Shown one piece after another: positions 28 through 34,382 of a DNA stretch of 34,382 bases; positions within the stretch are counted from its first letter, which is position 1, and each line of letters begins with the position of its first letter. Below the pieces are notes generated by a model, which saw nothing but the letters and a program-made list of their open reading frames with translations, did no database searches and was not told where the DNA came from. The DNA is from Bifidobacterium breve (GTDB lineage Bacteria; Bacteroidota; Bacteroidia; Flavobacteriales; Flavobacteriaceae). The stretch spans positions 1-34,382 of the forward strand of contig CALPUN020000004.1 of NCBI GenBank assembly GCA_943326765.2, in the 5' to 3' direction. Made by a program: the position numbers and the translations under genes.

Positions 28-513
28 ATGAAAGTAGCCATCATCATGGGAAGCAGTTCTGACTTGCCCGTCATGCAAGAAGCCATTGACATCCTAAAAA
101 GTTTCGGTATTGCAACCGAAGTCGATATTGTTTCCGCACACCGAACGCCCGAAAAACTATTCGATTTCAGCAAAAATGCACATACTCGAGATATCGCTGT
201 TATTATCGCAGGTGCCGGTGGTGCCGCACATTTGCCCGGAATGGTCGCGGCCATGTCGCCGTTGCCAGTCATCGGAGTTCCCGTAAAATCAAGCAATTCA
301 ATCGATGGTTGGGATAGTATTTTATCCATTCTCCAAATGCCTAGTGGTGTTCCTGTGGCAACCGTAGCACTAAATGGCGCTAAAAATGCCGGAATATTAG
401 CCGCACAAATCATCGGAAGTCACGATAAAAATGTTCAAAATAAAATCATCCAATACAAAGAAAGTTTGAAAGACAACGTCAATGCGGCGTCCGACCAGCT
501 TAAAAATAAATAA
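28..513 (+). CDS. purE: 5-(carboxyamino)imidazole ribonucleotide mutase
   Basis: 161 aa with PurE hallmarks MGSSSDLPVM, VSAHRTPEKL, IIAGAGGAAHLPGMVAAMSPLPVIGVPV. Confidence 0.97.
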   Translation: MKVAIIMGSSSDLPVMQEAIDILKSFGIATEVDIVSAHRTPEKLFDFSKNAHTRDIAVIIAGAGGAAHLPGMVAAMSPLPVIGVPVKSSNSIDGWDSILSILQMPSGVPVATVALNGAKNAGILAAQIIGSHDKNVQNKIIQYKESLKDNVNAASDQLKNK

Positions 514-519
514 TTTCAG

Positions 520-661
520 GAGCTACTTCCCGCTATCCGTTCCCAATCTTTTGTGCCACACGAACAGAACGAACTAACGAAGTAAATGCCGGCACAAAAG
601 GATTTCCACTGCTATCGGGGCTAGACAAATGCTACTAGTTTGTAAAACCTCCCGGAAGTAG
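520..661. repeat. Dispersed structured element, copy 1 (candidate structured RNA or palindromic repeat)
   Basis: Stem AATC-TTTTGTGCC (545-557) with GGCACAAAA-G-GATT (591-604, G600 bulged). Outer CTACTTCC (523-530) with GGAAGTAG (654-661). Core AATCTTTT...AAAAGGATTTCCACTGC.ATC is shared with 34237-34310. Confidence 0.65.
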
Positions 662-766: not shown

Positions 767-2794
767 ATGAACCTACTCACCCAAAAATTCGAAACCAAAT
801 ACGACACCGCTCCGTTTTCAAAAATTAAAAACGAAGATTTCCTTCCCGCTTTCCAAGAAGGAATTGCCAAAGCAAAAGCTGAAATCGATGCCATTGTCGC
901 CAATACAGAATTGCCCACTTTTGAAAACACGATTGAAGCCTTGGCGTTTAGCGGCAACATTCTCGACCGAATTTCAAGCATCTTCTTCAATTTGCATTCC
1001 GCCGAAACTAATGACGAACTGCAACAAATTGCCCAAGAGGTTTCACCCCTACTATCAGAGTTCAGTAATGACATTCGCCTCAACGCTGCCTTGTTTGCGA
1101 AAGTAAAAACGGTTTTCGAACAAAAAGAAACTTTAAAACTAACTCCAGAACAAAACACTTTACTAGAAAAAAAATACAAAGGATTTTCCAGAAACGGAGC
1201 CAATCTTTCGGAAGATAAAAAACTACAACTGAGAGAAATCGACAAGGAATTGTCGAAGTTGAGTTTGCATTTTGGCGAGAACATTCTAGCCGAAACCCAC
1301 GCCTTCGAATTGCACCTAACCGACGAAAAAGACTTGTCAGGATTACCTGAAGGTGCTATCGAAGCCGCTCGCTCTTTAGCAAAAAGTCACGACAAAGAAG
1401 GCTGGATTTTCACCTTAGACCATCCAAGCTACCTGCCGTTTGTAACCTATGCGGACAACCGCGACTTGCGTAAAAAAATGGCGATTGCTTTTGGCGCAAA
1501 AGGGTTTCATAACAACACATTAGACAATCAGGAAAACGTGCTCAAAATTGCCAAGTTGCGTTTCGAAAGAGCCAATTTGTTAGGGTATGCCACGCATGCT
1601 CATTTTGTTTTGGAAGAACGGATGGCGCAAGATCCAGAAAAAGTAAAAACTTTTTTAAACGATTTACTAGCCAAAGCCCAACCCGCTGCCCAAAGAGAAT
1701 TCAAGCAATTGACTCAGTTCGCCAAAGAATTGCACGGCATCGAACAGCTTGAAAAATGGGACGGCGCCTACTATTCTGAAAAATTAAAGCAACAATTGTT
1801 CAAATTGGATGATGAGAAATTGAAACCCTATTTCCAATTGGAGAACGTATTGCAAGGTGCTTTTACAATAGCTCAAAAACTATACGGATTGACTTTTACC
1901 GAAATCTTCGACATCGACAAATACCATGAAGAAGTGACGACTTATGAAGTTCAAGACGAAAACGGAAATTTAGTTGCCCTTTTTTATGCCGATTTTTTTC
2001 CACGGAAAGGCAAACGCAATGGCGCTTGGATGACTTCGTTCAAATCGCAATACATCAAAAATGGCGTTAACGAACGTCCGCACATTTCCAATGTTTGCAA
2101 TTTCACCAAACCTACCGAAACCAAACCTTCCTTATTAACGTTCAACGAAGTAACCACTTTGTTTCATGAATTTGGTCACGGACTTCACGGCATGTTGGCC
2201 AATACTACGTATCCGAGTTTATCTGGCACTTCCGTTTATTGGGACTTTGTAGAATTGCCAAGTCAAATTATGGAGAATTGGTGTTACGAAGCCGAAGCCT
2301 TGGCATTGTTTGCAACACACTATCAAACCGGCGAAGTGATTCCGATGGCGTTGGTTCAAAAAATAAAAGAAAGTGCGAGTTTCCAAGAAGGCATGGCCAC
2401 GATGCGCCAATTGAGTTTTGGGTTGTTGGATATGGGTTGGCATGGTCAAGACCCAACAGGAATCACCAATTTGAAAGCCTTCGAAACCGAACAATTTGCA
2501 GCCACACAATTATACCCTGACGTGAAAGAAAATGCCATGAGCACTGCCTTTTCACACATTTTCCAAGGCGGCTATTCTTCGGGGTATTACAGTTACAAAT
2601 GGGCCGAAGTTTTGGATGCCGATGCTTTTGAATACTTTCAAGAGAAAGGAATTTTCAATACAGAAGTGGCCACCAAATTCAAAGACAATGTGCTTTCTAA
2701 AGGAGGCACGGAAGCACCGATGGTTTTATACAAACGTTTTAGAGGACAAGAACCTAAGCCGGAAGCCTTGCTGAGACGTGCAGGATTGGTATAG
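767..2794 (+). CDS. M3 family metallopeptidase (oligopeptidase A / dipeptidyl carboxypeptidase type)
   Basis: About 675 aa with zinc motif HEFGHGLHGML. Start assigned to MNLLTQKF rather than the upstream MRLKRFS extension. Confidence 0.92.
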   Translation: MNLLTQKFETKYDTAPFSKIKNEDFLPAFQEGIAKAKAEIDAIVANTELPTFENTIEALAFSGNILDRISSIFFNLHSAETNDELQQIAQEVSPLLSEFSNDIRLNAALFAKVKTVFEQKETLKLTPEQNTLLEKKYKGFSRNGANLSEDKKLQLREIDKELSKLSLHFGENILAETHAFELHLTDEKDLSGLPEGAIEAARSLAKSHDKEGWIFTLDHPSYLPFVTYADNRDLRKKMAIAFGAKGFHNNTLDNQENVLKIAKLRFERANLLGYATHAHFVLEERMAQDPEKVKTFLNDLLAKAQPAAQREFKQLTQFAKELHGIEQLEKWDGAYYSEKLKQQLFKLDDEKLKPYFQLENVLQGAFTIAQKLYGLTFTEIFDIDKYHEEVTTYEVQDENGNLVALFYADFFPRKGKRNGAWMTSFKSQYIKNGVNERPHISNVCNFTKPTETKPSLLTFNEVTTLFHEFGHGLHGMLANTTYPSLSGTSVYWDFVELPSQIMENWCYEAEALALFATHYQTGEVIPMALVQKIKESASFQEGMATMRQLSFGLLDMGWHGQDPTGITNLKAFETEQFAATQLYPDVKENAMSTAFSHIFQGGYSSGYYSYKWAEVLDADAFEYFQEKGIFNTEVATKFKDNVLSKGGTEAPMVLYKRFRGQEPKPEALLRRAGLV

Positions 2795-20301: not shown

Positions 20302-20379
20302 GGGCGATTAGCTCAGTTGGTTCAGAGCATCTGGTTTACACCCAGAGGGTCGGGGGTTCGAATCCCTCATCGCCCACCA
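20302..20379 (+). tRNA. tRNA-Val (anticodon UAC), CCA encoded
   Basis: GGGCGAT/ATCGCCC acceptor stem, anticodon stem TCTGG-TTTACAC-CCAGA, GGTTCGAATCC T-arm, ACCA end. Confidence 0.97.
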
Positions 20380-34170: not shown

Positions 34171-34318
34171 GCGTGCCGGCTCTAGAAAACCTCTAGTACT
34201 GAGGAACATCGGGCGAGCCGTCGGGCTGTTCGCTGCAATCTTTTTTGTTTGTCACACCGAGTGCAGTCGAGGTACTTTTTTTAAAACAAAAAAGGATTTC
34301 CACTGCCATCCCTCACGC
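34171..34318. repeat. Dispersed structured element, copy 2 (candidate structured RNA or palindromic repeat)
   Basis: Outer GCGTG (34171-34175)/CACGC (34314-34318); CGGCTC (34177-34182)/GAGCCG (34215-34220); GGG (34223-34225)/CCC (34310-34312); AATC-TTTTTTGTTT (34237-34250)/AAACAAAAAA-G-GATT (34284-34298). Confidence 0.65.
34256..34273. repeat. REP-like element ACCGAGTGCAGTCGAGGT in the apical loop of structured element copy 2
   Basis: Same core as 32182-32199; terminal ACC/GGT complementary. Confidence 0.65.
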
Positions 34319-34382
34319 GGGCGAGCGGAACAAATTTAAAAGGGGTATACTTGCCACGGAATTATTTCACTTCTTGGCGACT

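Follow-up and report, generated by a model that had tools for sequence, protein, structure and literature searches.

Results

Two Flavo-1 copies in the window

The window, by which we mean the whole 34,382-nucleotide stretch of DNA analysed here, holds two structured intergenic elements, one in the gap between purE and a gene for an M3-family peptidase and the other after an M1 peptidase gene. The features referred to below are as follows.

28–513, plus strand: purE, left neighbour of copy 1 (open reading frame and translation; the name is that of the preliminary description and fits the conserved gene order)
about 514–626, minus strand: copy 1, Flavo-1 type A (ends placed by profiling the flanks of 78 and 83 copies of its own genome)
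545–557, minus strand: first arm of the distal stem, AATC and TTTTGTGCC in plus-strand letters (sequence and Rfam alignment)
558–590, minus strand: variable terminal loop of copy 1, missing or replaced in other copies
591–604, minus strand: second arm of the distal stem, GGCACAAAA, the unpaired G600 and GATT in plus-strand letters (sequence and Rfam alignment)
627–661, strand not given: copy-specific flank with GGAAGTAG, outside the family
767–2794, plus strand: M3-family peptidase, right neighbour of copy 1 (open reading frame and translation; family name from the preliminary description)
34171–34318, minus strand: copy 2, Flavo-1 type B (Rfam match and type B architecture)
34171–34176, minus strand: 3' arm of outer helix P1, GCACGC in minus-strand letters (comparison of type B copies)
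34177–34220, minus strand: side hairpin P3, CGGCTC...GAGCCG (comparison of type B copies)
34313–34318, minus strand: 5' arm of outer helix P1, GCGTGA in minus-strand letters (other type B copies show compensatory changes)

A scan of the window against 4227 families of Rfam 15 returned three matches in total, two of them to Flavo-1 (RF01705) and both of these on the minus strand: 522–626 for copy 1 (70.8 bits, E-value 8e-14) and 34215–34327 for copy 2 (57.2 bits, E-value 4e-10). The third is a tRNA gene at 20302–20376 (RF00005, 72.6 bits). Both Flavo-1 matches exceed the RF01705 gathering score of 42 bits, so the likeness of the two stretches first noticed from the letters goes beyond chance, and every sequence quoted in the preliminary description was found in its place to within a base. 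That description had named a match to an already characterised element as the outcome that would count against its proposal, and the Rfam comparison produced such a match: both stretches belong to Flavo-1, an already catalogued motif, and in themselves are ordinary members of a known family.

Type A copies carry TAGCCC ahead of the hairpin and GGAAnTAGCTCCT with a run of A behind it, and beyond these the flanks of own-genome copies are without conservation; on its minus strand copy 1 reads TAGCCC...GGAAGTAGCTCCTGAAA. Within it TTTTGTGCC (549–557) pairs with GGCACAAAA (591–599) and AATC (545–548) with GATT (601–604). Copy 1 can also form an outer closure, CTACTTCC (523–530) with GGAAGTAG (654–661), and a small hairpin, ACAAA (625–629) with TTTGT (639–643). 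A closure of the CTACTTCC/GGAAGTAG type occurs in one of 73 type-A copies and has no counterpart in the other 72; the closure and the small hairpin (627–661) are private to copy 1 and are not features of the family. Since GGAAGTAG resembles a Flavo-1 end, the 627–661 flank may perhaps be the worn remnant of an inverted second copy.

Covariation and the folding strand

We aligned 104 of the 105 own-genome copies on their conserved letters, leaving pairing out of the alignment. Four base pairs covary freely among them, and two of these use all four Watson–Crick types (TA 34, GC 25, CG 22 and AT 14 at one; AT 34, GC 30, TA 28 and CG 1 at the other); the remaining two alternate between two types (GC 71 and AT 29; CG 57 and TA 37), all of these being counts over related copies and not independent events. 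Four G.A or A.G oppositions are fixed in 94, 103, 98 and 96 of the 104 copies. In the 57 copies of four further genomes, of which one is from the same genus and three are from other genera, all four G.A oppositions are retained without exception and 390 of 399 scored pairs are Watson–Crick. In a set of 44 aligned copies, 99.0% of cells were paired against 77.7% after shuffling, and the covariation score was 0.655 against 0.221, a value that none of 500 shuffles reached; sliding the partner columns by one to three positions abolished the covariation. The hairpin common to the copies is irregular, with pairs that covary and internal loops that are conserved. Selection on structure, as proposed in the preliminary description, is strongly supported by this comparison of copies, that is, by the covariation, the fixed G.A mismatches and the 57 copies of other genomes; the part of that proposal which counted the helix closing copy 1 and its 3' hairpin among the parts of the element did not hold.

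On the strand modelled by Rfam the non-Watson–Crick cells of the 104 and 57 copies, which are not independent of one another, comprise 24 G-U (or G-T) and 4 A-C oppositions (p = 1.8e-4). On the opposite strand this preference would be reversed, and the Rfam strand is therefore the folding one. It folds as a single strand, either RNA or single-stranded DNA, and the G-U bias fits either. The evidence for structure is comparative: single-sequence folding is uninformative for the window copies, with no unusual energy (z of about −0.7 in copy 1 and −0.5 in copy 2), and the minimum-energy fold of copy 2 on the Rfam strand differs from the Flavo-1 hairpin.

A three-way junction form

Type B copies possess, in addition to the main hairpin, an outer helix (GCGTTA/TAACGC) and a second hairpin on the 3' side that is highly variable in sequence, which together make a three-way junction. 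Paired changes are found at each of the first five positions of the outer helix among 49 type-B copies from four genomes, copies that were selected for at least five of six outer-helix pairs, a selection that favours the paired-change count. Position 5 is G-C (GCGTGA with CACGC) in seven type-B copies, and the variants GCATTA/TAATGC, GCGCAA/TTGCGC and GTGTTA/AAACAC were each seen once. The end stems of the side hairpin average 4.5 pairs, compared with 2.7 when the halves are exchanged among copies (maximum 3.3 in 500 shuffles). The span given for copy 2 in the preliminary description coincides exactly with the ends of this outer helix.

The Rfam model of Flavo-1, a single hairpin of 76 positions, has the sequence and main hairpin seen in both window copies and is missing both the outer helix and the side hairpin, which copy 2 and 48 other type-B copies add to it. 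Copy 2 thus represents a Flavo-1 subtype with a junction beyond the Rfam model, and this detail is new.

Other repeats were met with inside the loops. Five type B copies from two other genomes (our loci L356, L358, L361, L362 and L364) hold a different palindromic repeat, CCTGCAAGG...CCTTGTAGG, inside the side-hairpin loop, and here repeats nest inside one another at loops. In the copy 2 loop, CTCGGTGTGACA (34250–34261) recurs as a 12-base exact match at L091:1636–1647 and L109:1542–1553, in or beside own-genome Flavo-1 copies, and is perhaps another nested repeat.

Abundance and genomic context

The draft of the own genome (2.4 Mb, 227 contigs) contains at least 105 Flavo-1 matches, 97 of them above the cut-off, a count that is a lower bound since 150 of 761 candidates were scored. 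This is one copy per 23 kb, so that two copies in a 34-kb window are the average. Of the genomes surveyed, 160 of 250 in the family and 108 of 290 in the class carry Flavo-1, against none of 14 controls; in these surveys the motif is found in Bacteroidota and not in unrelated bacteria. Plasmids and phages yielded no match apart from a 41-base partial one in a Borreliella plasmid. The recurrence in Flavobacterium intergenic regions that the preliminary description had mentioned is thus confirmed by the genome's own copies and by the family and class surveys.

Two genomes from another family of the class (G508 and G707; L450–L479) carry a further form of Flavo-1 with a longer 5' arm, GCGCTGACTAACTGCGCCCGAT; the copies are very alike within each genome, which hints at more recent spread, and equal-scoring copies at two contig ends of G508 are probably a single copy counted twice. 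Elsewhere, two copies in genome G609 (L452 and L455, contig C2 at 876937 and 900024) have about 60 bases of 5' flank in common, including a second hairpin, and the duplicated unit there therefore exceeds Flavo-1.

The order purE–peptidase is kept in 110 of 110 Flavobacterium loci, and the gap holds Flavo-1 in only nine species, always in the same orientation (seven loci found by pattern, two of them identical in sequence, and L197, L242 and L244 by eye). Many other species have terminators or unrelated palindromic repeats there, for example CCTGCAAGGTTTT...AAACCTTGCAGG. The gap (514–766 in the window; L138–L247) is a hot spot, where other Flavobacterium species carry either a terminator or repeats from three or more unrelated palindromic families. 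Two further sites have kept their copies in several species with altered pairs (one position of one site is variously A-T, G-C or T-A), and there the distal hairpin is exchanged outright or the copy is replaced or interrupted by a different repeat. Conservation is not absolute, some orthologous copies having broken pairs. Copies are old at some sites and have been gained or lost at others, and the fold has been held more than the letters. Neither the purE site nor the two further sites offered a clean empty site with a target duplication, because wherever a copy is missing another repeat or unalignable spacer takes its place.

Copies are frequently found near stop codons. Between flanking genes of the same direction, called as simple open reading frames, 58 copies are antisense and 33 sense (p = 0.011), a split of 37 to 17 in the own genome and of 21 to 16 in four other genomes. 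A hand count in two single-contig genomes divided copies 52 to 35 between the replication strands (p = 0.09), and a third genome was without clear skew.

These data bear on the main rival to the dispersed repeat that we favour below, namely that Flavo-1 is a cis-acting structured piece of mRNA which serves processing, stability or termination in leaders and trailers from either transcribed strand. The covariation, the G-U preference and the proximity to stop codons would suit such a role, and several 5' transcripts of F. psychrophilum overlap Flavo-1 matches (PMC9723704). However, the G-U-preferring strand is the one more often antisense to the flanking genes, and in the same transcriptome study, which offers no clue to function, Flavo-1 matches lie sense or antisense to transcribed regions indistinctly and many lie outside them (PMC9723704). 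Moreover, Weinberg et al., who discovered Flavo-1 through comparative genomics in 2010, scored it as probably RNA and as not cis-regulatory (PMC2864571). We consider a cis-acting RNA unlikely.

Comparison with mobile repeats

The movement of REP repeats depends on IS200-like Y1 transposases (RAYT), and Flavo-1, with its high copy number, its intergenic position and a hairpin with fixed mismatches, could be a REP or REPIN of this kind. A Y1_Tnp domain occurs in 96 of the 250 family genomes, and its presence is associated with that of any Flavo-1 (p = 2e-6) but not with high copy number (p = 0.65); the former association may only reflect genome size. No Y1_Tnp was found in the own genome. Among the 21 genomes reaching 18 scored copies it is present in nine and missing in 12, among them three single-contig genomes that have 55, 41 and 45 copies. 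A Flavo-1 copy lies within 1.5 kb of only one of 20 Y1_Tnp loci. RAYT was rejected as a general mover on the absence of Y1_Tnp from the own and other high-copy genomes and on the one-in-20 linkage; the idea is largely refuted and, as an account of Flavo-1, highly improbable, though a mover of this kind may have existed earlier and been lost. By eye, no transposase-like open reading frame was seen between neighbouring copies in contig C36 or around near copies in a genome of another family (L457), where an autonomous element might have lain, and neither these inspections nor the Y1_Tnp searches turned up a mobilising enzyme.

Like REP, BIME and REPIN sequences with RAYT (PMC2817692, PMC3733652), Flavo-1 is a short, imperfect palindrome in high copy, intergenic and folding with fixed mismatches. 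It differs in being longer, in having a three-way junction form and in being accompanied by no linked or co-occurring Y1 transposase. The repeat is short, palindromic, abundant and intergenic and no RAYT gene is associated with it, so its likeness to REPs is one of manner only and membership fails on the defining enzyme. Bacterial MITEs (PMC5896051) are likewise small and non-coding with many intergenic copies, and the inverted-repeat ends GCGTTA/TAACGC of type B recall theirs. In contrast to MITEs, Flavo-1 copies covary strongly, and we found neither a parental insertion sequence that shares their ends nor, at three sites, a target-site duplication. Terminal inverted repeats, a MITE trait, are present in type B and none were seen in type A. 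Integron attC sites, like Flavo-1, form a hairpin in which certain positions always stay unpaired and the terminal loop varies. Compared by eye with the attC consensus, however, the GTT/AAC end motifs of type B run opposite in direction to attC core sites.

Discussion

Flavo-1 is probably a dispersed structured intergenic repeat of Bacteroidota that works much as REP or MITE-like repeats do, with a fold recognised as a single strand. The choice between an RNA element and a structured mobile repeat, both of which the preliminary description had entertained, now leans towards a repeat of this dispersed kind, with an RNA role less likely. The Rfam strand forms a long irregular hairpin, its short Watson–Crick helices broken by the fixed G.A mismatches, and in type B the outer helix and side hairpin complete the three-way junction. 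We envisage that a nucleic-acid-binding protein or enzyme would recognise this fold, probably as single-stranded DNA or in a passing transcript, and that new sites would be seeded by DNA copying through some enzyme. On this reading Flavo-1 is not a gene-specific regulator of purE or of the peptidases.

We observed directly that the stretches belong to the family, how many copies there are, that pairs covary while the mismatches stay fixed, that there are two forms, that copies are present or absent at orthologous sites and that their orientation is mixed; transposition we infer, since none of the sites showed a clean insertion together with its empty counterpart and a target duplication. The conservation of a fold at one site with its sequence swapped could also come from function in place or from gene conversion.

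That copies lie more often antisense than sense to their neighbours and come and go at fixed sites argues against a dedicated sRNA gene as well as against a cis-regulator. The proposal that the Flavo-1 copies are independent small-RNA genes, following its Rfam type 'sRNA' and a 2022 review that lists it, function not given, among the most abundant bacterial sRNA families (PMC9029176), is the least probable of all when set against a copy number of 105 or more in 2.4 Mb, their presence and absence at fixed sites, a flank profile with no conserved promoter-like sequence upstream of the copies and, for many copies, the published F. psychrophilum transcript data (PMC9723704). Against the Rfam type, the present data favour a dispersed repeat.

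Going further than the dispersed repeat itself, we suggest tentatively that Flavo-1 may not be an sRNA at all and may instead be a structured repeat that is recognised in single-stranded form and owes its spread to an enzyme other than IS200/RAYT, its full form being the three-way junction with fixed G.A oppositions of which Rfam models one arm. Flavo-1 occurs widely in Flavobacteriaceae and outside that family, and in reviews it figures as an abundant sRNA. The evidence from covariation, strand and gene order makes a test of repeat versus RNA concrete, and the three-way junction form is the molecule to test.
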